Shown here: positions 25,495 through 48,487 of the stretch, piece after piece
Layout of the letters: every line of letters begins with the position of its first letter
Position numbering within the stretch: the stretch's first letter is position 1
Source: Dromaius novaehollandiae
Taxonomy: Eukaryota; Chordata; Aves; Casuariiformes; Dromaiidae
NCBI RefSeq assembly: GCF_036370855.1
Contig: NC_088112.1
Location: 18,282,469-18,346,468 of the forward strand
Length of the DNA stretch: 64,000 nucleotides
Direction: 5' to 3'
Made by a program: the position numbers and the translations under genes
The notes under the pieces: generated by a model
Databases searched by the model: none
The model's input: only the letters and a program-made list of their open reading frames with translations
What the model was told of the DNA's origin: nothing

Positions 25495-25667
25495 TTAAAG
25501 TTCATCACTTTCATACAGTCCAGACTGCTCAGCCAAACGCTGAAACTCTCCTTCTGGTGAGAAAGCTTGTTTCACATCCAGTCCTCTACCATTGAGTGCC
25601 AAATACTTGCTGAAAGTTGGTCGGACCCGTAACAGCTTAGGGGCTGGAACTGGCTTGTTTGCATGTG
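25495..25667 (-). CDS. MYOT: MYOT terminal coding exon
   Basis: Acceptor ctctttcag. Encodes HANKPVPAPKLLRVRPTFSK, YLALNGRGLDVKQAFSPEGE and the end QSGLYESDEL with TAA. The C-terminal five residues fit the PDZ-binding motif described for this family. Confidence 0.97.
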
Positions 25668-28600
25668 CTGAAAGAGAGAGAAAAGCTTCTTTCAGTGTTT
25701 TCCCAGGCACCCGTGATATAGCAACCCAATTGCTTTTTATCTGCAATGTAAAAAGCAAAGTGTTAGGACAAATTTAACAGACAAGCCCATATCCTGGGCA
25801 CTGGAGACTGATGGGAGGACCACATTCATCCTGCTTCTTGGTATCAAGCAAACCAGTCTTTAAATAGCACAGACAGCAGATGCAGACAGTGTACAAAGGA
25901 CACATGACACAGTATCTTGGCACTGAACGAATGCACTGTCTTCCCAGACTAGTTTCTTTTTGTCTACGTCAGTGTCTTGGGAAAGAAATCCACCCAGGAG
26001 TTAGCTTTACGAGGCTAATCTTCAGGGTCTGTTCTGAATACAAAGGCAAGTGACTGCTTAAGTTGTAGTCTGATGGTACTGTGACGTGGTACTTACTTGC
26101 AACCTCCAGTCTGGCATGGCATGTGGCCACACCTGCTCCATTAACAGCAGATACTGTATACCAGCCGGCATCTTTCTTGTTGGCATTATGAATCAGGAGG
26201 CAAATCCTTCCAGTGTTGTCATGCAACAAGCTGCAAAATTAAAGGGTTTATGTGTAAGTGCTTGGAGGGGGAAGGAGAGAAGACAAAGACACTGAAGTTA
26301 GAGAGGCAACCTACATGCCGAGGAGTTGGGAAAGCCCTAGAACAATTTTTGCAGGGCACTGCAAATTGTTTAGGCATCAACACTGCGTTGCTGCGTTGTG
26401 AGAATACCACTCGTTCACATTGTGGTAGCATTCAGGTGGCATCAAGGCCCTCTCGTAGCCCATGCTGCCTCAAAGCATAATGAATACATTGCATGTTTCT
26501 GTCCTACAGCCTTGCTCCCCCATGGGCACTGTGACTGCTGCTAGCCTTCAGAGTGGCATCTGGTCACAGAGTTTTCTTTCTGTGCTCTCAAACGAGACTG
26601 AGCATTGCGTCTGTCCAGCACATGGGCCTGTTTGTCATGTGTAGTAAGTGAGAGGCCTATCTAGCTGGAGGCTGCTGCTTTTAGAAACCAGCTCATTCAA
26701 ATTTGACTTAACAAACACTGGTTATTGTTTTCTAACACACCAATGGCCAACTCATTAGTAGGATACCTTATTCGGTCTGTATTATATTGTACCATTTCAT
26801 TGTTTCTTTTCCAGTAAATCCGGGGTGTTGGGATGGCAGAGATCTGGCATTCGAGTCTGGCTGTATCTCCTTCAAAAACTTTTTTGCTTTGTGGTTTGAA
26901 GATGAATGTTGGAGGAGTATGATGTTCTTTTGCTAAATTAAAGAGGAAAGATGAGGAGGAATTATAATAAGTATTGAATGTCAATAGCAAGCTTTGTTCA
27001 GAAGCTTTTAGAAGGCTAAATTCATGAGGATGCATGTCCCTTAGAGTAACTCCATAGCCTATAGGCAATTCCCGTGAGCACCAGGATATAGGATATAGTA
27101 GGCACAAATTCCACTTTAGGAAAATAGTTGATCAACATATTCCATCAATATTGTGATATTTGAGTGACTCCCTAATTCTGGACAGGATGGCTAGATACCC
27201 CAATACAAGTGCTTTGAAGAAATACCGAGTCCCAAAAGTGTGTATTAGAATAGTCTTGGAAAAGGTAAAGTGTTTGTTAGAATTTGAGCCTGAATATCTT
27301 GAGATCCACCTCTACTTCCCAATTGTTTTAATGTCCCAAACACAGAGAAAGGCATTAGACTACAGACACTTGCCATGGCTTGCCAGGTAATTGTTAGTGC
27401 TCTGCATCTTACCAATTACTTCCACTTTTACTGCGAAAGAAGCTTCCCCTGCACGGTTGACAGCCACGCATTCATATGTCCCTGCATCAGATGATTTGAC
27501 TGCTTCAAAAATAAATGAGTGGAATCCTTTTTCTGACACTATCATTTTATGGAACTGATCTTGATGAACCATCCTTCCATTCAGATACCACATCACATCT
27601 GGAGTTGGCAGCCCACTAACCTGTAAAGGAGAGGAAAGAAGTGAAGGGTTAAAAAGCTTTAACATAACACAAAGCCTTCAGCGCTATAGGGAGTTTAATG
27701 CATTTAGATGCAGAAATTTGCAGTCTTGCCTAGTTTTGAATGTTAATGTGGTGCTGCGCAGAGAGGAAGGCTCATGGATTGCTCCAGACAATCCAGAGAA
27801 AGGAGCTTTAGCTACAAGACAGTGGAGGCTGTTCCTGCAAACCTCTGGTACTCCCATCCCGCTGGTTAGTTTTGATTTAATCTCACAGAACTAACACTGT
27901 CAGCATCCATTTAGCTTTGATAATATGTGCAAATAAACTGTATGCTGTAGATATTTTATATGTAGATATTACAGCCTCAGAGGGCTCCTTAGAGGCAGGC
28001 AGTCCTCAACAGGCCTCGCAGGACATGTGGCTCCATTCCTTCGCAGTCAGCGGGAGCCTCAGTGCAAAGCACAAAGTCACCTGCCTAAATGCTTTGCCGA
28101 AGCAGGGCCTTGATATTCATTCTTCCCAATGAGCTTCAGAGTCTTCTGTGGTGGTACATATTTACCACTACTTAGCTTTAACCATACTCTTATGCATCCA
28201 ACCCCACTTACATTTTCCCTTGGAAAATGTTGAGAAATTAATGCATTTTCTATTGGTTCACATGGCCTAGAGAGACCCTGCACTATCTACTGTTAGGCTG
28301 TTAGTGCTCTGCCTTATTAGAATACATATGCACTGCAGCAGAGACCTGTATGCTGCACACACCACAGAGCTAGGGGACTGAAAGTGAAAGGCTGGCATTA
28401 CTTTAAAGTCGAGCCTGCAGAATCGCCCCTCCTCAATAATGACGTCTTCAGGCACTTGTGTAAAACGTGGCTGAAAAAATTTTTCCTGGATTGAGTCGTG
28501 TCCATGTTCATCTCCTCTTGAGGATGGTCTGCTCCTAAAAAGCACACGGTACCAGCTGCATTAGTTGTGCAAAAGTTGCCATTAGCACAAATCACATTGA

Positions 28601-31600
28601 AACACTGATTGCAGCCAGAATGCCTCAGCAGTCCTAAGCATCCAACAGTACAATTCTGTTTTGTTTTCCAGCCATTAGGTTAAGCATGAGGTTTGATCAA
28701 CCATTTATCTTGCTTAAGTTATTTGATTCAACATAGGAGCATCACATATAAAATCTGATTTTTAGCCTAATATCCCAAAGAATTTGTGAGAATAATGTAA
28801 GCTGTGTTTCATCATGGTCTAAGGTCTGTAGTTACTCGTTACACTGTTGGAACTGGCCTTCAGTGGAGGTACGTTATCTAGAATAGGAAGCATATTTGCC
28901 CTGCGTATATGGAGTCTTTGCAACTTTCACATTATGCTTAGAATTGACTAGATTAAAAATCACAGTCATCATGAACCACACACACGGTAGCATTTTAACT
29001 GAAAAGGAGTTAGTAATTCACTTTAGAAGAATGAATAAAAACCGATATTGTCTATAAACATTTTAAATAAGGTCTTCAAGAATAGCTCAGTGCAAGTTTA
29101 TGCATTACCTTGCATGTGTTGAAGGAACCTGCAACCTGATGTTTTCTGCATTCTGGTGCTTGGAAAGGAAAAGAGGAAAGATGAGTTAACTTACAAAGTT
29201 TAATTATACACTGAACAGAAAGCCATTTTGAGATAGTATACTGACTGCTGTCTAAAACCAAACTGAATGCTTCAGAAGTCACTGGGACAAGATGTAAAGA
29301 CATTTGCATCGGGAGCTAATATGCTTGGTTTTCACCCTAGATTTTTGGCCATGCCAGTAACGAGTACTATTAATAGCATGGGACAACTTCTCATCACTCT
29401 GCGCAGGTGATAGGTGCAGCAGTTGCCTTTGGCACATAAGGCTTTTGGCAAGCCAGTAACCTTTGTTAGAGGGGAATAGTTCTACTGGCAGTATCTAAAA
29501 TGAGAGCTAAGTACAGAGTGTCCTTCCCTACCGCAGGAATAGAAGTGGAATCACTGGCCAGAACGCTGTATTGTGCCCACTTAAATATGGTACTAGGAGC
29601 ACTGAACACATGTTGAGCTGGAAAATATTTTTCTTCCTAGATCACAGCCCCAGCTAAGCTTCCTGACAGCTCCACAATCACATGAGCAGATCTTCTAAAG
29701 TACCCAGGATTGAATCCTGCTAGGAATTTAGATGTTTGCAGAATACAAGTAGAGTTTATTACCAGGGACTCATTTTAGCAATGGAATCAGATAGAGGAAA
29801 TGCTGCATGGAAATTTCTAGGGTATTTGCATTAAGCCATTATGATGCTTGGTTCTGTGCTCTGTAGGCCCATCCTGTGGAACATTTAAGCCTGGGTTTAA
29901 ACTTCAAGCACAGAAGCACTCTTCAGTTCAGCAGAAGTGTCATGTGAATAAAGGTTTTGCTGGACTGAGCTCAAAGCAGAGTTTCAAAGGCAATTGCTGG
30001 TATCTGCTCATTAACACAAGTATTGTGTAATCGCTTCTTTGTCTTGTGAAGTGATGCTGTAGAAATGAAGTTGCTATGATAATTCTAGCTCTGTTATACA
30101 GACTGACTGTACAGTAAGTTACTGAGGAATCAGGAGGCTGAATGAGTCACTGACAGCAATATATAAGACTGAACAAGGCAAACAAGATCTCCCAAACATA
30201 AGCCAGTCCCTCCTTCCACTCTTTATGGAGCATTGCACATCCCTGAAAAGGTCTCACAGTCACCTGTTTTGGCTGAACGTTTCCTTGCTCTCTCTGAAAG
30301 ATGAGGTCTCCCTTGCTCCCTGACATCCATAATGTTCCCTGCTTGCCTGCTATTGCCATCAGGCCACTGGTGGGGAGAAGCAGTTTCGTTACAACCCAGA
30401 CTGTGCGTTCCTCCCTTGCTGTGATCTTAAGTGTCTTGTGCACTAAAGAGAGCTTTGCTAACTGCATTTTGAGAGGTGTGTGACAGCCTGCTGGTTCCCT
30501 CTACATGCATGCAGCAGGAGGGATGCTTTCTTTGGTAACACAGGTATCCAGTGCCACATCACAGGCGTGTTTCCATCAACTTTGATCAAAGAAGTGCCAC
30601 AGCAAGCTTTTAACTGGCCTGTTCTGAATAACCAATGAATGATGCAAGTCTCTAATTAAAATGTTTTTCAACATGCCAGCAGTAATGTATCCTTGGCTCT
30701 CAGCATGTGGGTTGCTAAAATAGCTGCTTTGTCTTCCCTTAATGATTGCAGTCTCCTGGAAAGGATAAAACCCAACTAAAGCCACTCCAAGGTCCTGACC
30801 TCTTAGGTCAGTGAGTTATTCCAAACAGTGACAGGTGGAAGTCCTGCTGTCCTGGCCAAGCGTGAGCTCAGGCTGCCGGGGAGCGGGTACCTGCACCCCT
30901 CGCTGGGCTCCTCCCTGCCTGTCGCGGGCAGGCTGCAATGTGCCGCGTAGCAGCTGTTGTGATTCCTGCCCGGAGAGGTCATTCCTGCAGATTCGGCCCC
31001 GTAAGGGGATGCAAGTACTGTATTACTGAGTGCATAAACTCTCCCCTAGAAACCCCCCCAAATCCAGCTCTATGGAGCTCTGCTAGTGAAAGCCGTCTCT
31101 TTCCCTTTCCCCTTCTGCAACCCCACCTCACTTCCCTGCCGCAGCATCGGCCGCTCGCAGCGCGATGGCCAGGAGGCCGCTGCTCCGGGACAGGCTCCCG
31201 CTTACCTGTGCGTTCTGCGTGCTTTCTTCACCCTGTGCTTCAAGCACGGATGCGGCGTTTTCTGGTCCGAGCAGCCTGCGAGCCATTCTTTCTTCATAAG
31301 TTAATCGCTTAAAGCAGAGTGGAGAGGAAGCCTAGTCAGAAGTCCATTTACTATTTCAGTTCATCTTGTAAGAGCACATTAATATGCCCCAAATTCAGGG
31401 CGTTGTCACTGAAAGCAGCGGCTGAATAGAAACCCCACGTCTGCTCCAGAGGGCTTGCTGTCCGTGATGCCTGCTGGAGTCAGCCTCAATATATACACCA
31501 GTGCAATGCATAAAAGATTAAACTGTCTGTTCATCAAAGCCTTCCTAATGCCATCTGTGGCCTTCCACGCCTCCTCTTTCCGCGCTGGGATTATTTATGG

Positions 31601-34600
31601 ATAACTGATGGCATCATCTCAGAAGCCAGAGTAAGTCCCAGGATACCTCTCTGTTAGTGCTGGGAAAACTTTCCAAGTCATTCAGCTGTGGATTTACTTC
31701 AGGAACTAGAGGCTTGGTGGGTGCTAATGTCCCCTCCTCCCCCCAAAAGGCAAGAGCCACACCAGAGGCAGATGCAGCCAGATGGGAGCACGTGCTGTGC
31801 TGTGGGGGGTAATGGGGAAGGGCAGCCCGTACCCCTGAAAGCACAAGTCAAGCTGATGCCAGCCCTACGGCTGCCGTACTAAATGCTGTGTGCTGCCTTG
31901 AGGCAAGAACGCGTTTCAGGTACGTAACGATCAGGTTCTTACTGTATGGATGCGGCACACAGGGATAAATATGAGGAGAATTAAATTCAAGTTCTTTTAC
32001 TTTAGAAGAGATCGAGCACCTTGGTCCTCTGAGCACCAGGACACCTGAAACTTTGCTTCCTACAAGTTTATCTTGGGTTTGGAATTTGTGAAGCGAGGAC
32101 AAGCTCCAGCTGAATTTCTCCAAGTCTGGAGCATCTATGCAATTGCTCCTTTGTAGGTAAAGGCCTGTGGAGTCTTGTGGGACTTTTCTTTAGAAGAGAG
32201 CAAGAGACTTTTTTGCAAAACCTGTGAGAACTCAATATCCCTGAGATCATTACTGCTGTATTGAGTGTGGCTGAGATTGGCCGGCAGGTTCAGACATTGT
32301 TGGAGGACAGGGGAAGGGGACACAGAATGGCAATTGCATAAGCCTTATTTTTAGCCTGGCTTCCTATGGGAAGAAAAGCTGGCTTGAGGTGGCAAGTGTT
32401 ATTAAAGCAGATAGGACATTCCTGTTAGGGAAACACTAACTCAGATTTGACCTAGTATTTTGTTTTCCTTCAATATGTGAAATTATATACATGACACAAG
32501 CCTGTTTCTACTGAAGGTAACTGCAAAGCTCCTTTCTACTTCAGTGGGAATATGGCCCACCTGTAAACACCAGGCTTTTACCAGTCTGCCTCCATCCCAG
32601 AAGGATGGTTCCTGCATTAGAGACCTGCTTGCTCTAGTGGAGAATAAGAGACCTCTTATAGGAGACAGCCTTTAAGATAAAAGCTCATGTGTTTTCCTTG
32701 ATTTGTTTTTGTTTGTATAAAGAGAAATCAGAGTTTTACCACATGTGGTGATGCTAGAATGGGTTTCCAAATATTGGTGCTTCTCCAAGTTTGTAAATAC
32801 TCGGGTGGTTTATCAACCCTTAGCATTGGAAATCAGAATTAAAGCATATCTGGAAGACCCTGAGGCAGTCTCCTTGGGATTTTAAGTTGTCTGTGGATGT
32901 GATGTTCAGCAGATACCCAGCTGAGAGTTCAAGTTTGAGCCACCTCTCTAAATACTTACTTTTCTCCAGGTATACAGATTCCTTAATCTGCACCCTAGCC
33001 TCATTAATTTGACTGCAGTTTCAAGAACAGCTTGAGCAGTGTGTGCTGGCCAAGAGGGTAGGATAAGAGGGGAAGGTAATAGCAGCTCAGCCATCCTGTT
33101 GCCTCAAATTGCTTTCAGGAGTCAGTGCAGCCCTTACTGAAGTCACAAAAGAGGCAGACATTCAGCTGCCACAGGAGCTGCCTACAGACAGATTTACAGC
33201 TACTGTCTCTCCTGCCGTGCATTCAGGCCAGCTTTCATCATGCCCTAACAATATGCTGCTCCTTTGCTGGGAAGGAGCCTCTCATGGCTGAGCTGGGCCC
33301 AGAACCTGCCCCTGCAGGACAGGCACTTGCGTTCTAATAGCAAAAATAACTATGAACGAGGATGCTGGGAGCTGAAGCAGTTGAATTTAAATCCTTCAGA
33401 AACCACACCTTTTTTGCCAGCCCTGAGCCTAGCTCAAAAATGGAATTGCTGCTGAAGAGGTTTTTCTTTTTTTTTTTTAAACACACTTCTAATGGGAAAC
33501 TTCAGCCACCTCACACCGAAAAAAATAATCTAATCACAAATGGTTCAAAGAACCCTCACTGGGCCCTATCTGGATACTAAGTGTTTGGGCAGTGGTCTGC
33601 CATCCACTTGCTCCTCTACTTTCTTTTGCTTCCTGCTCAGCTGGAAGTCTCTGGGGCACTAGAGCTAGTCTCTGAATCCCTGTGTGCACTAACAAGAGTC
33701 GGAGCAAACCAGTTCTTTAATCAGCAGGTTTTCCTTACCTGGTTGCCATTCTGGAGAAGGTTGTCTTTGCATCGGAGTTTCCTTTCCAAGTCCTGAATGA
33801 GGGCCTCTTTTGTTCCTCGAATCTCGTGGTCTGATGTCTTCTGCATAGACTTGATGCTAGCTTGCTTATACATCGGTGTCGAGTAACTACTCATGCAAGA
33901 AGAGAAAGCAAAGTTATTCTTGTAGCCTCCTTGGCTGTTCACTACAGCTTCATAGAATACACACAAAAGTGTGAACCTGCTACCTAGAGACCATGGCTCA
34001 GATGAACTGTAAAGCATTTTGGAGATGCATAGGTCAGATGTTATAATGAGGGATCAAAAACCTAAGGGGAAGCGTCAAGTTGTTGATTGTCCTCCCACCA
34101 CACTGTCACAGTAGCCTGCTGTGGGCAGCATCCCTAAAGCTTGCTGTGGCCCCTGTTCTGGGTCTGATGTGTGCGGTAAGGCTAGCAGTGTTTTGAGGGA
34201 GCCATTAACTCCACTGAGCCCTTTGAGTTTGTCAGGAGCAAGTTCTCTCTCAAAAACTGCATTTCTCTACAATTTCAATTATTAAAAATGCCTTGGGTGC
34301 TGCAAATCCACAGCAGATTCCCAGATTAGTTGATTAGGTGTGAACAAATAGCTTATAGTTGTTTTCTTCTGGGCACCAGAAAGTTACTTGATACAGCATT
34401 TCTGTTCAAATGTTCAATAGCCAAGCCCACCCAAGCTAGCTGGGGTCTCTAGGAGCCCATGCTGCACACCCCCATATATCTTAATGCTGTAATCTATAAT
34501 CAAGGGACACAATGAAGTCTTGACTGTGGTAATAAGTTAAGTGGTAGACTTGATTCTGAAAGGTTTTAGGGAAAGAGGAGCATCCCTCAAAATGGGTTGG

Positions 34601-36393
34601 TTGTGAAGGTCTACCAGAGGTCACAGCGCTCTGCTGACAATATTTAACCTGATTCTTTAAATGCAGTCAGGCCTTGTATGCTGTGGTTGTATCAAGCAGT
34701 TATTTCTCTTCCAAATCCTCTTCCTTCTGTAGCTTGGGAGTTTGTTCTGCTGATTAGGATAGGGCGGAAGAGCTATAACGCTGGTATGCATCCTCAGCAC
34801 TGGCTGGACTTATAACTTGCTCAAGGCCACCAGGTTAAGTGTCACGTTCCTGTTTGCCCATTTGTAAAATGATTAGGAAAATCCTCGACTCGCAGGATGT
34901 TGCATTTAGTTATTCAGAGAGGCTTATGTGAAAGGCATAGTAAGGCACCAAAGCCCTTTGCCGTGAAAACAAGCAGCCCTACGCTACACACACAAAGCCC
35001 AGGGGTTACTCCAGATGCATACCTAACCCACATACACTGTCCTGCCTTATTAGCAGTACTTTTAAGAAACACTACTCAGTGTCACAGCTAGCCCACTCAG
35101 TATCACCTTTCCATTCCCTGCAGTGCTGTGGTTCAAAAAACAACCAACCCTAGAAATATTCAGATTTCCTGAATACAAACAGACACTTAAACCAAAGTTT
35201 ATATCCAAGTCAGCAGGAACCCCCCCTACCCTTATCACTTTTCTAATATCTGCAGTTGAATGTTTCCTGCACTGACCTTCCCCAGGACCTCCAGCTAACA
35301 TTGGCAGGAGTAGAAGGTGGCAAGGCGGCAAGACCCAGCTCCCTTTGAGATCTCACTGACCTTGAGAGATATTTGGATTGCAGCCCAAACGCAAAATGAT
35401 ATAATACATATCCAGGGAAGAATTTGGTCTGAAGGGGTAAAAAATTTCAAGTGACTGCCTTTTTGTTCATGCCTATGATTAATGAAAACTATATTGTAAA
35501 TAAGTTTAGAGGCCTGTCACGATACAGAGCCTGGAAATACTGCTGAGACTTGCTAGGAATCTTAACAGTGCTTATATCTGGAAAATATTTCTTTCCAATA
35601 TAAGCCATATTTGTTGACAGAAAATCATTTGAGATGGTTGCCCATCTTCTGCTCTGGATACCTTTTACACAAGCAGTTTCCACCAAATCAAGCTAAACCA
35701 TTCAAAGCAACCCAAACAGATGCACAGCAGCCAGTTACAGGGCTGCTGTGTAGTTTAGTTCCCCGTTTATAGCTCTCCATCCCACACAGACACCAGGAGC
35801 AAGCGTTCAGCCTCCTAACCTCATTCACTTTACTCATGCAAAGTCCTGCCTTGGACACCAGAAGTCGAAGGGAGTTGTGCCGTCGGCTTCAGCAAAGCCA
35901 GCGTCCCCCCGACGTTGGGACTGGGTTGGTCAGTGCGCGGGGGAGGCCAGGTCAGCCGAAGCTAGTCCAAAGCAAGGGGAGGTTAGAAGCCTGGAGGTAC
36001 TTACTGAGGATCCATAGGAGAAGGAGCTTGGCTGTTATATTCAGGCTGTGAGGGTAACACTGAGCACAGGAATGCTGCGGGGGGTTGGTTAGGCATGGAT
36101 ATAAGCCGGTGCCCAGACGATGAGCTAGCAGGAGACTGCGCAGATGCAGGTGTGACGGGATATGTGGATTCCTTAGGGGCGCTACAGGAAGGCGAGGAGA
36201 GCGTGATTGAAGAGCTCAGCGATGAAGAGGAGGAAAATTTCTGCCCGCTAGGGTTACGAGGTTGTATTAGGATGGAGGACTGTTTGATTTGTCTGCTTGA
36301 CTCTGTAGAGGCTGCGGGTCCTGGAGGCTGCTGTTGCCCTTGACACACATTCTTAGCCTGGATAAAGTGTTTTGGACGTTCGTAGTTAAACAT
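25495..36393 (-). CDS. MYOT: MYOT canonical short form (500 residues)
   Basis: Same gene read from the ATG at 36393, the exact counterpart of the human start (MFNYERPKHFIQ). 1503 nt, 500 residues plus stop, against 498 in human. The start has A at -3. The Ser-rich stretch after QSSILIQPR corresponds to the human myopathy hot spot (Ser55, Thr57, Ser60); the position of human Thr57 appears to be Ser here. An internal promoter in the intron 36608-43061 would be needed for a transcript with only this form; none is obvious to me. Confidence 0.85.
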
Positions 36394-38436
36394 AGTTGGT
36401 TGGTACATGGAGGAAACGGATGGGAAATTATGGACACTCATAGGAGAGGTTTCACGACTGTCCTGGCTTTTTGTTGGTGACAATTGGCTTTGGATAGGTG
36501 GCTGGTAAAAATTAGATGGCAGGCCACAAAAGCTTTCCTGGCCGGGCTCCTGGATAGAGTGGAACCCTTGCCTTGCAGAATAGAGGCTGTCTTGGTGTGG
36601 ATTTTCCCTTAAGGAAGACAATACAGATAAAATAAATTGTACGACACAACTTGAATTGCAAAAATACTGTTTCGTGAGAAGTCATTAGCAGTCCAAAGAG
36701 CATGAAGTTCAGGCAACTGACAATTAAACCTTAAGCTTAAAATAAAGAGTTTCAGGATTGATTAGACCTATTCCAGAACTATATGAACATTTCTGATTAC
36801 AGTAATAAGTCATACACTCTATCACAGCCAGCTGCAGTGTTCACCACTGCTATCTTATCTGCAAGAGCCCAGTAAATGCTAAAAGAAATAGCAGTTGGTT
36901 TATTGTGACAACCCATCACCTGCCCAAGTCTACACTAGGGAAACATGAAACAGGTTCCACTTTCTTTTAAGCCTCAAACTAAATATTTGAAACCGAGTAT
37001 CCCAATTTCTTCTGTGATAGTTTTTGAATTCAGAGCTTTTATATCCAATTGAGATTAGGAGTTGGAATGCCAAGGACCATGCTTCTCCATGTGAGGTGAT
37101 TTGTGTGATTTGTTATTATGGCTAGTAATAGCTGGAATGATGCAGCCGCGGGATGAAGTAGCACGAGCAGAGCTGCTTGGAGGTACTGCATGGATTTGGC
37201 AGGTCAGTGATATCTAAACTGGGCTTCCCAGCAGTTTACAAAAGAGGAAAAAGTTTGATTAAAGAAATCTGAGTAAGTTTGCTAAAAACTGACAACTTCA
37301 GCTCCGGTATAAATAAATAGCGCCCTGCTAAAATAAGTGAAAAGCTACTAATATAAATGAGCATATAAATCTATACAGTTACATGTGCTGGAAAAAATTG
37401 TAATCTTGTCCCACTGAGATCAGCTGTTTCGCTGCTATATATACCCAGTATATTGTATTCCTCTCATCGGAGAGCCCAAAGGACGGTTCCAGGAGGTCAT
37501 AAATTCCCTTAGGGGATCAGCTGAAGGCATCACTCTTGTCTTAAAGATTCAAAGCTTTCGTTTCCTAACGGTCTTTAACAGTATTAGCTGAAAATTAAAT
37601 GTAAGTAAACACAAGTTTTCTAGTAAACCCCCCCCCCCCCACTTTCTCCTTGTCTTGTGCTGGAATTTGAAGCCAGCTCAAATTTTTGGAGTGTATCCAA
37701 GCTATTTCTCATTCACCGGTGCAGAAAACTGCTTAAATCTTTTTTATGCCTTTTTTATATCCCTGACTATATACAGATTCATTCATTTTATCTGCAGACC
37801 ACATACAAAAGCCATCCTTTACTTTATTTTCTAGGATACTGCAGTTAACCAAGACACCAGATAAACCCACTGCCCCGCATCGCACAGGTTCACTTGTCGC
37901 AGCGAGGGATCGCTTACATTTTCCTCAAATCATCTCATCTTGACTTAGGAAAAAAACCAAAACAAACAAAACAACTCCTAGATTTCTGACTTTATAAGAT
38001 AAAGAGCATATACAATAGTAGAAACACCTCTTTTTTTTAGAAATCACTGATTTCTTTCTTCTTTGCCTCCTATGCTACCCTTGACAGTGCAGTGCCTTAA
38101 AGGTGCATTTCCAGCTCAGCGTTACCCAGTGCATTGCAATGCCAGCTTGCTAATTAGATACAAAGTAAAAAGTAACACAAAAAACCCCCCCAAACACCTT
38201 ACCTACAGCCTAGAAGTTGTCACCTGGGCTTTAACCAGTATTTTGGGAAGGGGCCGTCATTCAGTGACACAGACTGTCATAGTAGCCCTCTGCGTAGCAT
38301 TATAAGACCAGAGGCTTTAATGTGCTGCCAGCTAATGACAGCCACTGGACCTGCCTGTCCTCCTGCCTGCACCAGTGTCAGAATAAGAGTCTCCACACCC
38401 CAACCCTCCTGCTGCCACTTCATTTAAAGGCTGCAG

Positions 38437-38495
<59 letters not shown>

Positions 38496-38601
38496 AGGTG
38501 CCCGTGGTCAGCAGATCATGCAGCACAGGCAGTATAAATCCTGCTCCCCCCATAGGCTCCCAGCTGTGAGGTCTGAGCCCCATCAGGGCACCAGGGGTTT
38601 T

Positions 38602-38643
<42 letters not shown>

Positions 38644-41600
38644 CCCTCCTGGTGAGGAGCAAGGCTGTGCTGGCTGGCAATGGTGACAGGCTGCATCTCA
38701 TCCCAGCTGCAGAAGAGGTGATGGTCTGGTGCCTTTGCAGGTATTTCTAGTGCTCCTGGCCTCAGCACAGGGGTTTATATGTCACCAGTGTGGTTTATTT
38801 GGGCCTGTTCTGTGTGCAGTCTGCAGGTGAGGCTTTGTCTCTGAAATCCTGCAGTTTTGGCTTGTTCCCTTGCCCCAAGCTGGTTTCTCCCCCACTTTGG
38901 GTTTGGGGCCAAAGCTCTTGGAGGACAGGGAAACCTGGCCCATCCTTGCTGGTGGGGTGCTACTGCCTTCCCTGCCAGGCTGAGCTGTGGTTGTGTCCCA
39001 GCATGGTGAGGGCCCAGCACTGCCAAGGTGGGTGGCAATTGCCAGCCCTCTGGGATGGGGCACATGGTGGCCTCTGAGGCCATAGCCCTTGCCCTGGGGT
39101 TAAACCCCTGAGTGCTTGGCATGGTCCTCACCATCCTTGGCCACTTCTCCATTGGGGAATGGCACTGAGGGCCCATTGCATGTGCTGAAATGCCCCCATC
39201 TGGCTAGCTCCTCTGTTAAGCATCTTGGGGAAGTTCCTTCTCTCTTCATTCACCATGGCTGGCTGTAGCTAACTGCATCTGTAGTGAGAAAACTTGGACC
39301 TGCCTTCAAGGCTGTCTGCTTAAAGGCAACAGGCACCTGAAAGTTAGATATAAATCTCATTTAAATAATTAATCCACAGCACACTCAAGCCCTCATCCTG
39401 CAGCGGTCTCTGTCGGTACCTGTGGCTGGTTTGCCCTGCTCCTGTGCTTTCCTGTATTACAGTAATACACACAAAATTGGTGGTGTTACTCATGGTGGCA
39501 AAATTAAACAGGTGTGTAAGTGTTTGAAGAACCAGAGTCCTAAATAGAATAACACATACAGAAGACTATACTTGATAGTAAAATGTTTAGTATTCTATGT
39601 ATGTATGTATTATTATACCTACTTACTTGGATTAAAAGATCCAGCTATGCTGTTTTCACCAGGAGGGGAACAGATAGAGCTGGCAGGTTAAGTGATTCGT
39701 GTCCCTTTTAATAAAGACTTCAGTACTTAACTATGTCTTAATTGAGCATTGTACTGTTTTAAGTGTCTTAATTATACTTTGCAAACTCTTGCATAACATG
39801 CATGCCATTGCTTAAAACCCCCCCAGCCCTGTGAGTACAGCAGCTCTGACGGCGTGGGGCCTTTAGGTTTCTTCTCTCCCTTGACAGTATTGAGTCTGTC
39901 TGCACAGTGATCTTTAATAGTTAGTCCACAGTTAATGCTTGCATTTAAACATCAGCCCACTGTTTGTGAACTAATTTTACATAGTAGGCCTTAATTGAGT
40001 GCTAATTTACGTAAATTCCTTGCAGGGGAAGTGATTAAGGGAGGAAGTGTGACCTTAGCTGTCTGGAGGGGCTGTTTGTTGTCTGTTAAGCAGAAAATGC
40101 TGCAATAATTCACAGGGAGTGTTGCATGCTAAATAAAAAATAAGTGAGGGTAACCGTAGCAGGCTGCTCTGCGCTGTCGGAGGCCGTGAGCACGCTGAGG
40201 GTCAGGTTCTGCGCCCGGGCTCACAGGCTTCCTGGGTCTTCCAGGAGATTGCAGCGGGCTTGCTGCAGACCTGGAGGTGGCTGCGAGCCATCAGTTTAAG
40301 GACAGCTTTGTGTATTTAAAAGGCTGGACACAACTAGGACTATGCGTGTGAAGGCAAGGAACAGGAAAACATGAGGTCCAAAAGGTAGGAAAAAAACTGG
40401 AAGCTCAGCTGATAGAGGTAGAGGACTAAATCTCATAGCTTATGTTAGGGTAACTTAATAGTACTCTGGGCAGCGCTGTTAAGTGTTAGAGCTTAGCTTT
40501 TCTATGCTGCTTCAGTCTCCTTTCTATGAGTGATGACTCATTGCACCTGATCAGGTTCTCCTTTGCTTGAACCATATAGCAACAAATGGCTAGAAAAGGC
40601 TAAAGAATCTTTTATTTACTTGTTAAGTAATCTTAAATCTGCCTAAAAAGACCTGGCAGTAAACTTAGTGCCTGAAGCCCCCCTTTTGCTTGCATTAAGT
40701 TACTTTATTTAAGTTAATAATCAATATAGAGCCTAGCACAGGCTGTGTTTTCTGCCTTTTTTTAAGGTAGCTGGAGAAGGAAACAGTAAGGTGCAGACAT
40801 AATGGGCTCAAAAAGGAATAGCTGGAAGTGGCAGTCTTCTAGAATTGCATTTTGTAGCTTTTGTAGTGACTGTTGCTAAGCAATAATTTGGAGAAGTATG
40901 AGCACAAGGACTTCATTCACTTTATAGCTGTTCCCAGTAATAGCTTTGTTTTAGCATCGTGTTCTTTGCTGGTATTTCTTTTTGTCTCGGTAGTACGGTT
41001 TCAGTCACACAGGCTACATGATAAAGTTATAGGACTAAATCTGCCTAATAAGACAGTTACTGTACAGCTAATCATCCAAGATCTGACCTTGCAAGTACTG
41101 GCATGCCCCTTCCTTAATTTGAATTAACAGCAGCATTTACAGTGTTAAGCCCCACTCATAATGATATTTCAAAGCATGAGAGAACAGGGTTGTGTTTTTA
41201 AAGGATATCTAAATGCTCAGAGGTGGATATTTCTAGAAATATCACTAATGCTACTGCAGTAATAAACCCAGCAGCAAGTATCATCTGCAAGAAAGCCTCC
41301 TCGCACACTGCTTTGTAGAAAGGCCAAAGTACAGGCTTCCTGCGGCCTCTGATAAATCTGGAGAGAGGATGGAAAACCCAGTCCTATTCTACAAATACAG
41401 CTAGAAAACGTGTCCTACTGCCTCCGTTCCTTCCAAGAGGCGATTATGCCAGAGATTGTATGACAAGCTTTCATTTTTGGTTGCCAGATAGTTAAGAGCT
41501 GCCTTGTTTGGAAGAAACCACGTGTAAAGATTACAAGCAACACGATGCTGATCTGAACTAGATACTCGCCAGTAGATTCAGCTGTATCTCTAGGTGCTGG

Positions 41601-44600
41601 GGACTGCAGTAGCTGAGCACAAGTTTACTTGAATACAGCACAGTATTAGCATGCTGGGCTGGTGATATTTGAAGACAATGGCACGTGTGCAGGTTACAAG
41701 CAAGCCCACTGCAGCTTTACGGGACTGTGGTGTCCTCTGGTCCATATGAGTCAGCTCCATGACTAGGAGTCAGCAACCAGCTTCAGCCGGGGCTTGGGCT
41801 CTGCGTGGGTCCCGGCTGCTTGCACTGGCACAAGTCCTCCTGGATTTCATGGAAGGGCCTGGAGCTAAACTGCCTCCTTGGAGAGATCTGCAGCTTATGG
41901 AAGTAAACTCCACTGTTACTCAGCTCTTCAACAAAAATCTCCTGTGCATAGAGGAATCCACGTTGAAATACCTCTTGCGTGCTGAACTTGGAGGAGGGTG
42001 TTCAGAATTGTTAAAATAACTGGTTTAATGAAAGTGGCTGAGTGCATCCAAAAATAATCTATACCACACGGAATGCTTTCTGTCATGGACAACCATTTAC
42101 ACACGGTGTAATAGTATCGCTGTAATGCCCCAGTGGCATCCAGCTGTGTGAGGAGCTGCACGTCTGCCTTACAGCTCTCCCCATCCCAAAAAGTATGAGG
42201 CAGCTATAGTGCCAGGCCTGAATCCCCCAGGACCCCTTAACTGCCACTGTCTCAGATCTTCCTTGTGCCAATAAACTCCTGACAAATACTGCAAAAATCT
42301 GGGGTGGAATTGCTAAGAAAACATGTGAACTCTAACTTACTTTGTTTCTCAGGTATAATTAAACAAGCTAAGTAGCAACGCAGTAAGTAAATAGCTGCTT
42401 AAGAGTTACATTTGGGGCAGAAATGGGAGATTTTTCTTAAGAATACAGTATCACCTCTCATAATAGGACTCAATCCATCTGCTGAACGGGGCCTACCATG
42501 CCAAGGGACACTTCTCGCTGTGTCCGGTGGGATCACCCATTCAGTGCTTTTCCTCCCCAGGGTGCTTTATAGGCGCAATCTAAGCGTGCCACACTTCCAG
42601 GACCCCGACTTTTATTGCTGCTTTACAGAATAGGGAACTGAAACACGAGGCGACGCAACTCAACCAAAGCTATGGAGGAAGTCAGTGGCCACAGAACTGT
42701 GACTTGAAGTTTCCCAGATGTTGTGTTTTTTGTTCACACTCCACTGTGGAGTCGGAGATTTCCTGGGGCCTAACTACTTGTGGCCGCGCTTTTAAACTAC
42801 TTACAGGTAGGCACTTCTGGAAATACCCCTATGCACTTATCTAGACTTTAGATAGTTACATGCTTTGTCCGACTGAGCCTGTGCTGGTGTCACAAGTTCC
42901 TAAGACATCTAGGCAAACAGCTTGGGTTGTTGCACGCACGTGTGTGCCCAGATGGGGTATGGGGCATGGGAACTTTGCTGTTGTGTCGCTGGGGTCACTG
43001 GAAAACTCATCCTCTAGTGTTTAAAACCACCCTCGGGATGTGATTTTCCCCTTTGCCTTACCGCAGAGGTGAAGCCTGAGGCGAATTCTTATAAACGCCG
43101 GGAAAATCTTCGGTTTCGCTCTCGGAGTTCATCCGGCTGAAGTCGGTGGATCCCGCTCGCCGGCCCAGCCCTGGGGTCTCCGGCCGGGTGCCGTAGGGTG
43201 GCTGGCCAGCCGCGTCCCGCTCCGCGGCGGCAGCCTGGCTGCTTCGGGGGAAGGTGGGTTTCCTCGTGGTGGCTGGCCCCGGGGCAGCACCCGCAAAGCT
43301 TTCCAGCTGTTTCGCTCCTGGGAATGGGATTGCACACAAGTCAGTCGTTCCGTTTGCAGCTGCCTTTGGGTGCGAGCTGGGCAAGTTGTGTGTTGTGATG
43401 AACAAGGTGTCGATCCCAACAGCGTGTTGGGCTAAGGTGCGGGGTGGAGGGGGGATGCTCAGGGAGGAGACCCTTTGTGCGAGGGAATGACAGCTCCACC
43501 TTGTCGCCCTTACGCTGATCCAGGTGGAAGCACGGCCAGAAGCAGAAATGCAGAACAACTTGCATTCAACCTTGAGAAATGCCCAGGTGGACTGTGTTTT
43601 GGGGGCGTTTCTCCTTGGCTGAGCCTACGCAAGTGTTGGGGCCTGGTTTCTGTTTGGTGAATACCTGCAACGCTGCTGGATGCTGCGCGGCAGCAGAGGC
43701 TCCTGAGCTTAGTTGTTCAGCTTGAGATCTACGTGCTTACCTGGGGAGACGGAGAGACGTGCGCTAGATGCCACTGAGCCAAATTCATTTTCAGCAACAC
43801 ATTTAAATGTCCCAGAGTCTTCTGGAAAAGCTTCTGTGATAACCAGTGTGCAGACTTCCTCTGAAATGACAAATGGAGGCATGCTGTTGGACCCGGTCCT
43901 TGCAGACACGGCTGTTGGTTAGTGATGGGGCTTGGTGGCAAGAAGGGGTGTAAAGAGCATAGGATTTGGTCAAGGGATTTGGAAGGAGCGAAGATGACAG
44001 AATGATCTTTCTGTGACTTTAAGGAAAAAAGACTGAGAAAAGCCCACAGGTTAGTATGATTGATATGTTCCAGTGTCTCTTAGCACACAGGATATTTTTG
44101 GCTGAATGCAAAAGGGCCAATGCCTTTTTGACTGTGTTGCTGAATAAACCGGGGCCTTTCAGGAGCTTGTGTCAAAACCAAGTACCTGAAAACTGTTAGT
44201 CTGACACTGAACACGGTATCTTTGGCTACCTGCTCAGCATTATTGTTTCCTCTTGGATTAGATGAGGGGAAAAAAAATAAGCTTGGGGTAAACTAACTGA
44301 TGGGATGTCTAACAAAAGGTGTGTGGTGTACTTACCAGGAACTGCTGATGAGCAAGCCTCTGCTCAAAATAAGAGAGAAAACAATTAAATGCTTGTAAAT
44401 GCCAAAATGGAAGAAAGACCCTCAGCCCTCACCTGCTCTCCCACCTCAGCTGGTTACAAAAAGGACCATCTCAGTGTCCATCAAGAGAAATGCCGTCCTG
44501 CTCGGGGAGGTTCAGATTTGCCTGAAACCTGATGGCAGGAGCCCCTCTCCACTGAGGCCATATAGAAGAGGGCTATATTGATCAGTAGCTGCAGTATATT

Positions 44601-46944
44601 GTGACAGTGCTTTCATGGCTCAGTAGTTTCTTCTCCAATAACTAACGCCCTTGCGGTCCCTTCCCATGGTGCCTGCTCTGCTCACACATCCGCAGAGAAG
44701 GAAAGGACAGGCTGTATGCAGCAGGCTGTAACAGCAGATCATTTAATACTTTTAAATCAAATTCTGTCTCTACGATCATATACTGTCCTCTAATTTTTAT
44801 AGTGATTCTTGTTCCTGTCTTATTACTATCCCAATAAAATCAATGTGTGTTAGTGAGGCATAGCAATACCTACTTTTCCGCAGTATTCGGAAATCTGCAG
44901 AATCTATTATTGGGTCATATTCTCTGTACCAGTGAACCTGTAAGGTTGGCGTGGTGCGAATGCGGCATTCAAATACCACTAATTGACCCTTCGTAGCTCT
45001 GATGTTTTGTAGAACCTGGAGGAGGAAAAAATGGTGTAAAATGGCTGACATAGTAATTGCTTAAATGGGCAAACACTTGGGCAATCAAACACCCTTTAGT
45101 GAACAAGGTGATGTCATGACTCTATTTTATTTTACTTAAAACAAATGATTTGATTTTCTAGATATATCTGAAGTGGGTTGAGAGTGGAGGTTTTTCCACC
45201 TGTAGACCAGTGCTCATTTAAAGGCTTTAGCTTGCTCATGCATACAAATCAAAACAAAAATGCAGGAAAAACATCTAATTCTGGTGGATGACATATAATA
45301 AAGCAGGCTACAGTGAGAGATTCCACTTCAGCCTTTTTTGTAGCAAATAAATGAGATGAATTCATGTGAGTGGTTCTGTTTGTTGGGATCATTTACCAAT
45401 TAAGATACTAGTTTGATAGCATTGCTAATGAAGTGTGTTGGTTTTTTGAAATGTAAATGAACCACTCCCATGGGTTTTCTAAGGGAAGAATAAAACTCAA
45501 AGCCTAATGCTAGGGGTTGAAGTCGAAGAAGCAGGGATGTCCTTCAGCCAACCTTTGTTCTTTACCTTCGTAAACACAGGTGTGGTTCCATAAGAAGACC
45601 CTGTCTGGCTCGTAGAGGGACTCTGCATCTATATAGCAAAGAAAAATAATTTTATAGCTTGCATTTCTCATTGCAGAAACCCAGCTGTGTTGCTGGCACT
45701 TTACTTTGAAACAGAGGAAGGTGCCAGAATGTCTTCTGTTGTTTGTGCACCAGCCTATCATATACCCTGGGGAGAGTCTCTACTCAAGTGCTCCCAGAGA
45801 AAATGCCGTACTGGATTGTGAGCAACAAATTAGTGGAAAGAAGAGCTGATAACCTGTAAGCATTGCTGGTCATATAGGGCATAAAAGCCAATTCACTGCC
45901 CACATCTTGTAGTTTCTCTGTACAGCTCAATGTTGCCTTCCAGTAGTTGTCCTGGCTTGTAGTAGTAGTTGTCTGCCTGGCTTAGTTGGTCCCAGGTCTA
46001 GCTCTTCTTGGCTTGTGTGAAGAATGTGTAACTACAGTGAGGCTGAACGTACAGAAATGGGAGGGAACTTTGGTCTGTCCTGACATCCTCCTTAAAGATT
46101 AATTGATGTGGAGATTAGAGTAAGGTCTCTGATTAATTGAGAAAGGCAGTCTTAAGGCTATCAAATCTTTACAGTGCAAGATATGTCCTTGCTCCATGGC
46201 GGAGTGTTGATGCCACTCTCACCCATCTCATCTAGCTTTTGGCCCACCTGTCTTGCATAGAAATGTGCAACTGAAGTGCCCAGGTTTGTTCTGCTGTGGT
46301 CATGGTCTTTTCCATAATCCGTCTCTTCTCCAAAATAACCCAAATTATCAGCTCTTTCCCTCCCAGCCTGAGTTAAGATGGAAGTCTGTTCCTAGATAGT
46401 TTGAGTTCCCCAGCTCTTGACCAAGTAACTGTTTAAAACTGACTATCTGTTGGAAGTGAATCTTTGGAGGAGACTGGCAAAAGGCTGAGCTGTGTGGCAG
46501 CTACTCAGTTATTTCTAGTCTTATCCCCCTGCTCCCTCAATTCTCTTGGCGATTCAGGCTGGACGATGTTCGAAGCCAGGAAGCCTTTTTCCAGGAGGGA
46601 GAGTCCAAATCCTGATATTCATGATGACTCTTGGTGACTTGCTGAAGATGTGCTCGAGCTGATCCTTACAAGATATTTCTAAAATACTGTAAATAATAAT
46701 TTAAAAAATGTGTAACATACTCTTTGAGGGTCAATAGATAACGGCTGAATTAAAGTGGTGTAACTCTGGTGGGCTGAGCAGCTGCTAGGGACTTCATTGG
46801 CTGAGGAACCAATGGTCAGCAAAACACTGGTGGCTTTCCGCTTTCTCCTGGTGTGGGGGGAAAAATAAACATGGCAGGATGGAGACAGAGACTTTAGCAG
46901 GCTGAATGTACTTGACCCAACAGTGTTTGCACTTACTGTGACAT
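25495..46944 (-). CDS. MYOT: MYOT, myotilin, long form with three Ig domains (15 exons)
   Basis: Myotilin is a sarcomeric Z-disc protein of the myotilin/palladin/myopalladin family that binds actin, alpha-actinin and filamin C. The exons listed below join in one frame of exactly 811 codons from ATG 46944. Residues of about 60-150 form an extra N-terminal Ig domain (Cys83, Trp95, Cys134) that resembles Ig2 of myopalladin. Residues 311-810 are the canonical protein: MFNYERPKHF start, Ser-rich region, coiled-coil-like IQDLERKLRCKDNLL, Ig domains at about 562-654 and 660-753, and the C-terminus YESDEL, which fits the PDZ-binding end described for this family. As in human myotilin, the last Ig lacks the second Cys (GWYTVSAVN). 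Human MYOT has 498 residues; the short form here has 500. Identity is certain; use of the long form is inferred. Confidence 0.95.
26097..26230 (-). CDS. MYOT: MYOT exon 14 (canonical Ig2, second half)
   Basis: 134 nt, acceptor attttgcag, donor gtaagt. Encodes LLHDNTGRICLLIHNANKKD, then AGWYTVSAVNGAGVATCHAR. The usual second Ig Cys is Val here, as in human. Confidence 0.96.
26767..26932 (-). CDS. MYOT: MYOT exon 13 (canonical Ig2, first half)
   Basis: 166 nt, acceptor taatttag, donor gtatcc. Encodes FKPQSKKVFEGDTARLECQI and YWKRNNEMVQYNTDRI, near-identical to human. Confidence 0.97.
27413..27620 (-). CDS. MYOT: MYOT exon 12 (canonical Ig1)
   Basis: 208 nt, acceptor cctttacag, donor gtaaga. 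Encodes VSGLPTPDVMWYLNGR, HKMIVSEKGFHSFIFEAV and DAGTYECVAVNRAGEA, with Ig Trp and second Cys. Confidence 0.97.
28402..28534 (-). CDS. MYOT: MYOT exon 11 (start of canonical Ig1)
   Basis: 133 nt, acceptor gctttttag, donor gtaatg. Encodes SRPSSRGDEHGHDSIQEKFF, then QPRFTQVPEDVIIEEGRFCR and LDFK, with the first Ig Cys. Confidence 0.95.
29109..29158 (-). CDS. MYOT: MYOT exon 10 (small)
   Basis: 50 nt, acceptor ctttccaag, donor gtaatg. Encodes HQNAENIRLQVPSTHA, matching the human HNSEHARLQVPTSQV. Confidence 0.88.
29159..31205 (-). other. MYOT: MYOT intron 9
   Basis: Plain intron; a GC-richer patch lies at about 30840-31000 next to exon 9. No further gene or repeat was recognised. Confidence 0.6.
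31206..31307 (-). CDS. MYOT: MYOT exon 9
   Basis: 34 codons, phase 0 at both ends, acceptor tgctttaag, donor gtaagc. Encodes RLTYEERMARRLLGPENAAS, almost identical to the human segment. Confidence 0.93.
31308..33738 (-). other. MYOT: MYOT intron 8
   Basis: Plain intron; short T run at about 33467-33478. No coding or RNA feature recognised. Confidence 0.6.
33739..33886 (-). CDS. MYOT: MYOT exon 8
   Basis: Encodes YSTPMYKQASIKS, then DHEIRGTKEALIQDLERKLR and CKDNLLQNGNQ, as in human myotilin. Donor gtaagg. Two acceptors three bases apart (exon start 33889 or 33886) both keep the frame; the longer adds one Ser. Confidence 0.92.
33890..36004 (-). other. MYOT: MYOT intron 7
   Basis: Plain intron sequence with no recognisable feature. 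Confidence 0.6.
36005..36607 (-). CDS. MYOT: MYOT exon 7 (holds canonical start)
   Basis: 603 nt, acceptor ttccttaag, donor gtaagt. The first 71 codons (ENPHQDSLYSARQGFHSIQE onward, ending SMYQPT) lie in frame before MFNYERPKHF at 36393. The rest is the Ser-rich myotilin N-terminus with QSSILIQPR and FLCSVLPSQPEYNSQ, like human. Confidence 0.95.
38441..38493. repeat. Homopolymer tract, 53 T
   Basis: Uninterrupted T run on the plus strand, equal to poly(A) on the minus strand. By far the longest homopolymer in the window. The true length may differ because of sequencing. Confidence 0.95.
38494..39200. other. GC-rich, CpG-poor block beside the T tract, possible retroposed sequence
   Basis: About 700 bases, GC-rich with very few CpG dinucleotides, unlike the AT-rich intron around it. 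If it is a retroposed copy, its tail would be the poly(A) on the minus strand. I found no recognisable parent and no clear target-site duplication. Confidence 0.3.
38602..38640. repeat. Trinucleotide repeat (GCA)13
   Basis: Thirteen perfect GCA units in a MYOT intron, about 110 bases from the T tract. Not in a supported exon. Confidence 0.95.
43062..43317 (-). CDS. MYOT: MYOT exon 6 of long form (linker)
   Basis: 256 nt, acceptor ccattcccag, donor gtaagg. Reads AKQLESFAGAAPGPATTRKP and ends with NSESETEDFPGVYKNSPQ. Gly/Ala/Pro-rich, CpG-rich disordered linker; phases fit exons 5 and 7 exactly. Confidence 0.75.
43741..43860 (-). CDS. MYOT: MYOT exon 5 of long form (extra Ig, second half)
   Basis: 120 nt, acceptor tgtcatttcag, donor gtaagc. 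Encodes EVCTLVITEAFPEDSGTFKC, then VAENEFGSVASSARLSV; myopalladin has EEICTLVIAEVFAEDSGCFTC. About eight residues present in myopalladin between FRILQKK and EEICTL are missing here. Confidence 0.88.
43861..44873 (-). other. MYOT: MYOT intron 4
   Basis: Intron that splits the extra Ig domain. Nothing else recognised. Confidence 0.6.
44874..45015 (-). CDS. MYOT: MYOT exon 4 of long form (extra Ig, first half)
   Basis: 142 nt, acceptor ttcctcctccag, donor gtaggt. Encodes VLQNIRATKGQLVVFECRIR, then VHWYREYDPIIDSADFRILR. Myopalladin has MLQN...GQLVVFECRVK...WYREG...DSPDFRILQKK, so homology is plain. Carries the Ig Cys and Trp. Confidence 0.88.
45566..45628 (-). CDS. MYOT: MYOT exon 3 of long form
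   Basis: 21 codons, phase 0 at both ends, acceptor ctatatag, donor gtaaag. Reads MQSPSTSQTGSSYGTTPVFT plus K; PVFTK|VLQN is the typical entry of the palladin-family second Ig (APVFTKMLQN in myopalladin). Its own ATG could also serve as a start. Confidence 0.75.
45629..46720 (-). other. MYOT: MYOT intron 2
   Basis: Plain intron between long-form exons 2 and 3. Nothing recognised. Confidence 0.5.
46721..46847 (-). CDS. MYOT: MYOT exon 2 of long form
   Basis: 127 nt, strong acceptor (ttttccccccacaccag), donor gtatgt. Reads RKRKATSVLLTIGSSANEVP, then SYTTLIQPLSIDPQR. The pattern NEV-SS...QP...QSP recalls the myopalladin linker before its second Ig domain. Confidence 0.65.
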
Positions 46945-47010
46945 TCCTCTGGCCCTGCCAGGATGCTGAGACTTGCAGGGAGGCCGAACCTTCAGATTTA
47001 CCCTAGGAAC
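46937..47010 (-). CDS. MYOT: MYOT exon 1 of long form (start codon or still internal)
   Basis: Exon-like block with acceptor gtctctccag and donor gtaagt, open throughout in the joining frame. It contains ATG at 46944 (ggaATGT, purine at -3), giving MSQRKRKA across the splice. The upstream part (VPRVNLKVRPPCKSQHPGRA...) could be 5' UTR or coding if more exons lie upstream. The acceptor shows at least one more upstream exon, which I could not find. Confidence 0.5.

Positions 47011-48435: not shown

Positions 48436-48487
<52 letters not shown>
48436..48487. repeat. Dinucleotide repeat (TC)26
   Basis: Perfect TC/GA microsatellite of 52 bases. Confidence 0.97.

Follow-up and report, generated by a model that had tools for sequence, protein, structure and literature searches.

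Sequence evidence for a palladin-like upstream unit with an extra Ig domain at a bird myotilin gene

Myotilin (MYOT) is a human muscle-disease gene and is treated as encoding a protein with two Ig domains. Exon 1 of human MYOT is non-coding. At the locus studied here, exons upstream of the textbook gene encode an Ig-like sequence, and the question is whether they belong to myotilin and, if so, where they come from. The human gene is described with 10 exons, 498 residues and two Ig domains in PMC8002584; the two domains, given likewise in PMC5479843, are what the earlier note had assumed. MYOT is presented as a single-isoform protein in PMC10069870.

The minus strand of the window, by which we mean the whole 64-kb stretch of Dromaius novaehollandiae DNA analysed, contains a complete myotilin gene of 16 exons, from exon 1 at 46937-47010 to exon 16 at 25495-25667; all exons and introns given below lie on this strand. 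The gene model was fitted by splice signals and reading frame. It has 15 GT-AG introns, no internal stops and an open frame of 834 residues, in which Pfam finds three I-set Ig stretches. The textbook myotilin protein is encoded by nine exons, 8 to 16. Exon 8 (36005-36607, 603 nt) starts with 71 open codons, followed by the human-type start MFNYERPKHF (ATG at 36391-36393, 318 codons downstream of the exon-1 ATG) and the textbook N-terminus. The myotilin body continues in exons 9 (33739-33934), 10 (31206-31307), 11 (29109-29158), 12 (28402-28534), 13 (27413-27620), 14 (26767-26932), 15 (26097-26230) and 16, which together encode the two Ig domains of the textbook protein and its C-terminal ESDEL. 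By eye, the pyrimidine tract of the exon-9 acceptor (33935-33946, tgtagtgaacag) is poor compared with the other acceptors in the model, and exon 9 may have an alternative start.

The orthology with MYOT is seen from tblastn with a human MYOT query, from the gene model and from Pfam, which together give the textbook body, the two Ig domains and a C-terminus matching ES[DE]EL. The neighbouring gene on the same strand (16783-21476) is a polycystin-family channel with PKD_channel and Polycystin_dom matches; polycystin domains were found at 21219-21476, 19207-19503 and 16783-17031 in the three of ten pieces scanned. This gene is PKD2L2-like by position and is assigned at the family level only. In the human gene order PKD2L2 adjoins MYOT, and at the level of the polycystin family the neighbourhood is conserved. 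Exons 8 to 16 thus share with textbook human MYOT the MFNYERPKHF start, both Ig domains, the C-terminal tail and a PKD2L2-like neighbour. Compared with the human sequence, a single stretch of the window protein is longer by 8 + 3 residues, and elsewhere one residue is extra and one is missing. Among the 85 vertebrate myotilins analysed in PMC5479843, an N-terminal insertion of 11 residues is reported for Aves only.

Unlike textbook human MYOT, the window gene has seven more coding exons upstream of the exon that carries the human-type start, with one extra Ig domain, and its exon-8 frame extends upstream of that start. Exon 1 (74 nt) is bounded by AG and GT, has its ATG at 46942-46944 (MSQ...) and ends in phase 2. 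Its frame is open right to the acceptor, so a translation start further upstream is conceivable. At the predicted N-terminus, MSQRKRK, basic residues cluster in a way that resembles a nuclear-localisation signal. Some 1.4 kb before exon 1 there is a pure TC dinucleotide repeat of 26 copies (48436-48487). Exon 2 (46721-46847, 127 nt) encodes RKRKATSVLLTIGSS...LIQPLSIDPQR. The extra Ig domain begins in exon 3 (45566-45628, 63 nt, phase 0/0, ...TTPVFTK); its first half is encoded by exon 4 (44874-45015, 142 nt), which is followed by a 24-nt micro-exon, exon 5 (44336-44359, KACSSAVP, phase 1/1), and by exon 6 (43741-43860, 120 nt), which encodes the second half (EEVCTLVITEAFPEDSGTFKC...LSVSP). Exon 7 (43062-43317, 256 nt), which is entered in phase 1 and left in phase 2, encodes a linker. 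Intron 7 (36608-43061, 6454 nt), where a short-form promoter may reside, contains a pure GCA trinucleotide repeat of 13.3 copies (38602-38641) and a 53-nt T run (38441-38493).

Exons 1 to 7 join in frame to exon 8, and the frame continues to the myotilin stop, as the earlier note had proposed. The same note had given exons 3, 4 and 6 with exact coordinates, and each of them is bounded by AG and GT. The peptides it had read there are encoded, namely PVFTK and VLQN on either side of a junction, GQLVVFECRIR, SADFRILRK and EEVCTLVITEAFPEDSGTFKC; however, the second K of its RILRKK requires the micro-exon, which it had not listed. The extent it had proposed, 43741-46847, ends correctly on exon 2 but has to be widened on both sides, as exon 1 with the ATG and exon 7 also belong to the unit.

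Which Ig domain is it? Once joined, the piece scores as an I-set Ig domain (E = 1e-19, 70.8 bits). The exon-4 peptide was searched against the whole genome (1.47 Gb, 271 contigs, 27 of 27 candidates scored) and has three matches at E <= 0.001: itself on C15, one on C6 and one on C4. By tblastn with a palladin query, the latter two are the Ig2 exons of myopalladin (MYPN) and palladin (PALLD), respectively. The identity of the extra domain with Ig2 in the same genome is 57% for PALLD and 61% for MYPN. In a tree of 16 Ig rows, in which PALLD Ig1 is only half a domain and PALLD Ig3 is left out, it clusters with PALLD_Ig2 and MYPN_Ig2 with a support of 83/98, which is below the starred threshold of the tool, and it stands apart from Ig1, Ig3, Ig4, Ig5 and the four titin rows. 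Within the Ig2 group the sister relation to palladin is weak (80/75). Among solved structures there are 132 matching sequences, the best being titin and other I-set proteins, and no chain named palladin or myotilin is found among the best 60 of the 132; the structure search therefore says "I-set" and nothing further. Searches for relatives of the exon-4 region in the viral and prokaryotic collections viral_contigs and genome_contigs gave 5 and 65 pattern matches and zero relatives, as expected for collections without vertebrates.

On its sequence, then, the extra domain corresponds to Ig2 of palladin and myopalladin. The likeness to myopalladin Ig2 on which the earlier note had built is borne out by the comparison within the genome and by the grouping in the palladin-family Ig tree. 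One part of its simplest reading, that an ancestral palladin-family Ig domain was kept here, is also supported: the paralogue identity, the equal intron phases, the common micro-exon and the tree speak for a palladin-family Ig2 in MYOT, inherited from an ancestor shared by all three genes. The other part of that reading would be a loss or lack of translation of the domain in mammals.

The likeness extends beyond a lone Ig domain. The MYOT exons were compared with the PALLD and MYPN loci in three-frame translations by eye and with exons cut by script. In MYOT the phases of the introns between exons 1 and 8 are 2, 0, 0, 1, 1, 1 and 2, and palladin of the same genome agrees, where the last intron is represented by the palladin donor only and the micro-exon search in PALLD and MYPN assumed phase 1. 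In all three genes Ig2 is split by introns of phases 0, 1 and 1 with a 24-nt micro-exon. Exons 4, 5 and 6 measure 142, 24 and 120 nt in both MYOT and palladin and 142, 24 and 117 nt in myopalladin. Exon 3 has phase 0/0 in all three, with lengths of 63 (MYOT), 75 (PALLD) and 72 nt (MYPN). The micro-exon region reads KACSSAVP in MYOT, and KPRSATEP and KPRSMAEP in the two paralogues. Upstream of Ig2, exon 2 of MYOT has its palladin counterpart in QKKTTSVSLTIGSS...VIQPISVPSQQ, the common motif being (K/Q)(R/K)K(A/T)TSV.LTIGSS ... IQP(L/I)S; a motif search for exon 2 at the fetched MYPN locus did not find it. Exon 1 is the counterpart of the palladin exon ending ...GAMPQ, and in both genes this exon ends with ATG-xCA-CA in phase 2 before the donor gtaagt. 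The lengths of exons 1 and 2 are unequal between MYOT and palladin. As far as predicted exons can tell, the seven-exon upstream unit is a match to the palladin unit that follows Ig1.

The palladin ATG at the matching place is, we assume, the start of the 140-kDa isoform. With this isoform the MYOT locus shares exon order, intron phases, the exon-2 motif and Ig2, and the ATG is placed alike relative to the exon-1 donor. Since the exon-1 ATG matches this presumed start, we interpret the locus as a nested gene of the palladin kind. According to PMC2859948 and PMC10069870 (see also PMC7333403), palladin is a nested gene with alternative promoters and its 140-kDa isoform has four Ig domains.

There are also clear differences from the paralogues. 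A palladin Ig1 probe has 11 matches genome-wide at E <= 0.001 and zero on C15 (150 of 188 candidates scored). Like the 140-kDa isoform, the MYOT unit has its ATG in the exon that in palladin comes after Ig1, and these searches show no Ig1 encoded before it. A myopalladin Ig3 probe has 3 matches at the same threshold, on C6, C4 and C7, and again zero on C15 (17 of 17 scored). Within the window, at E < 0.01, the Ig1 and Ig3 probes match only the counterparts of Ig2, Ig4 and Ig5, the Ig3 probe only Ig5, and the matches beneath the true Ig domains have E values of 0.1-1 only. A counterpart of Ig1 or Ig3 in myotilin is therefore rejected, as at these thresholds neither was found in the window or, among the candidates scored, on C15. 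The entry of exon 1 is in phase 0 for the MSQ frame of MYOT and in phase 1, after Ig1, for palladin, so a palladin-type Ig1 exon could not be read in frame at MYOT. Myopalladin, with five Ig domains, shares Ig2, the 24-nt micro-exon and the phases of exons 3-6 with MYOT but also has Ig1 and Ig3, and the searches of the MYOT locus found neither. The five-Ig layout, with Ig3 between the linker and Ig4, is not found at MYOT; the long form would instead consist of Ig2, linker, Ig4 and Ig5 in palladin numbering. The place matched by the Ig3 probe on C7 (C7:27228151-27228384, 48% identity, query residues 2-76) corresponds to the Ig3 region and the preceding linker of myopalladin; judged by the Ig matches around it, it is probably titin-like.

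Is the extra domain under selection? The amino-acid identity of Ig2 in MYOT is 0.57 to PALLD (100 codons) and 0.606 to MYPN (99 codons). The corresponding values are 0.533 and 0.511 for Ig4 (92 codons) and 0.559 and 0.484 for Ig5 (93 codons). In an NG86-type count, Ig2 has pN of 0.275 and 0.261 and pS of 0.737 and 0.780 against PALLD and MYPN. As the synonymous sites are near or at saturation, these counts show long-term selection on the predicted Ig2 at the protein level. The three pairwise dN values give the MYOT branch a length of about 0.22 for Ig2, compared with 0.29-0.30 for the Ig4 and Ig5 domains; by this measure the extra Ig2 is constrained at least as strongly as the two myotilin domains known to be translated.

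These numbers bear on several other explanations of the upstream exons. Open frames that carry Ig-like residues by chance are one of them, and lone short exons are indeed often open: in GC-matched stretches of non-exon sequence the fraction ranges from 0.05 to 0.80 (exon 2, 1968/11827; exon 3, 3984/8957; exon 4, 1300/13834; exon 5, 2840/3573; exon 6, 2088/11299; exon 7, 38/346; the 5' part of exon 8, 589/11634). However, none of 20000 shuffles of the 954 upstream nucleotides is open, and neither the strength of the I-set match nor a micro-exon and intron phases common to the paralogues fits with chance, the probability of which we regard as negligible. It is also very improbable that palladin or myopalladin sequence was misplaced at MYOT by the assembly or by gene conversion. 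We found nothing in favour of it, the three loci carry separate Ig2 copies on different contigs, and 38-39% of the nucleotide positions in the Ig2 exons of MYOT differ from those in palladin and myopalladin. A recently silenced remnant deserves more attention, i.e., exons that were used until lately in the lineage and whose transcription has since ceased. The linker is not recognisably conserved, as such a remnant would allow, and if expression had been lost only a few million years ago, the sequence would look much the same. On the other side, exons and splice signals are intact, and the rate of change in Ig2 does not exceed that in Ig4 and Ig5. If we assume a neutral rate of 1.5-2.5e-9 per site per year, with indels at 5-10%, the half-life of an intact frame and intact splice sites in the 954 nucleotides would be 2.0-4.6 My in the absence of constraint; this speaks against an old pseudogene but not against a loss in the last few million years. 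At 20 My without constraint the probability of an intact unit is 0.001-0.048 under the assumed rates. Altogether we find a remnant unlikely.

The join between the upstream unit and myotilin bears on one further possibility, that transcription ends in intron 7 and gives a separate, 247-residue protein with Ig2 only, unjoined to myotilin. If intron 7 is retained, one further codon follows and then a stop. An AATAAA lies at 42616, 446 nt past the exon-7 donor, and the intron contains 6 AATAAA where roughly 3 are expected from base composition. Early-terminated isoforms of palladin are moreover mentioned in the available part of PMC10069870. Against this, the phase 2 in which exon 7 ends is the phase in which exon 8 begins, 71 open codons precede the human-type start, an opening like that of exon 8 arises by chance in only about one in twenty of the GC-matched stretches counted above, and Ig2 and the C-terminal Ig domains occur within one gene in both palladin and myopalladin. 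A separate product thus seems quite improbable. The linker itself, 157 residues encoded by exon 7 together with the 71 codons that open exon 8, gave no significant match to the fetched palladin and myopalladin stretches (best E 0.43), of which the palladin exon-8 stretch is incomplete, and it is not recognisably similar to that of palladin. Exon 7 is GC-rich (0.67), and its SESETEDF is reminiscent of a palladin N-terminal motif. Because the linker has no paralogue match, and because exon 7 and the exon-8 extension are sometimes open by chance, the join of Ig2 to myotilin rests on frame, phases, splice signals and the architecture of the family.

We consider it probable that the gene is a MYOT orthologue with the nested-gene layout of palladin, in which a distal start gives a three-Ig form and a proximal start the textbook form. 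The basis for this nested layout is the intact splice signals and frame, the identity of Ig2, the exon-by-exon homology with palladin and the long-term constraint on Ig2. From these we infer a long transcript and two promoters. A distal transcript that includes exon 1 would be translated from the exon-1 ATG into an 834-residue myotilin with three Ig domains. From its N-terminus, this protein would consist of a short motif, Ig2, the linker, a Ser-rich region, the two Ig domains of textbook myotilin, which would correspond to Ig4 and Ig5 of palladin, and a C-terminal tail. The textbook two-Ig form would come from a proximal promoter within intron 7 and start at MFNYERPKHF in exon 8. The 1 kb preceding exon 8 contains 4 E-boxes of the form CA[GC][CG]TG, against 0.59 expected, and 2 TATA-like motifs, against 1.08. 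In a control stretch of intron 7 the E-box count is 2, against 0.58 expected, and TATA is absent, while the 1 kb preceding exon 1 holds a single E-box (0.90 expected) and no TATA-like motif. No MEF2 or CArG site was found in these three stretches. The stretches were picked by hand, the expectations come from single-base shuffles and the counts are near chance, so we give the scan little weight: it leaves a promoter before exon 1 unsupported and one before exon 8 little supported.

The extra Ig2 would add a binding surface like that of the N-terminal region of palladin. The two-Ig region at the N-terminus of palladin binds CARP/ANKRD1 and FHOD1, according to the available part of PMC10069870, and by analogy this partner binding might have been carried over to myotilin Ig2. 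It can be speculated further that myotilin is nested by origin, that birds make a restricted long three-Ig form with partners of the palladin/myopalladin type and that mammals kept the short form only. Here we are more tentative and would put the chances slightly below even. The restriction would probably be to a tissue or stage, and the partners would be signalling or actin-assembly proteins.

Judged by titles and the beginnings of abstracts, no report of a long myotilin was found among the literature matches listed. The myotilin sequences in PMC5479843 were hand-filtered, and its available part does not mention a long form. For zebrafish, the available part of PMC1851013 gives a predicted myotilin with the figure 1999, apparently in nucleotides, which would fit a short myotilin in fish. 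Databases may well already contain predicted avian MYOT proteins of such a length.

If the long form is real, it would explain why the exon-8 frame runs upstream of the human-type start. Bird muscle data would then contain a band of roughly 90 kDa (estimated from 834 residues) and splice junctions that standard models may ignore. Among its tryptic peptides would be GQLVVFECR and ACSSAVPEEVCTLVITEAFPEDSGTFK, the latter across a micro-exon junction. If a long form is under selection in another vertebrate class, the textbook form would be a shortened descendant of a palladin-like protein, and, should mammals have kept only this short form, mammalian knock-outs would reveal only part of the ancestral role of myotilin.
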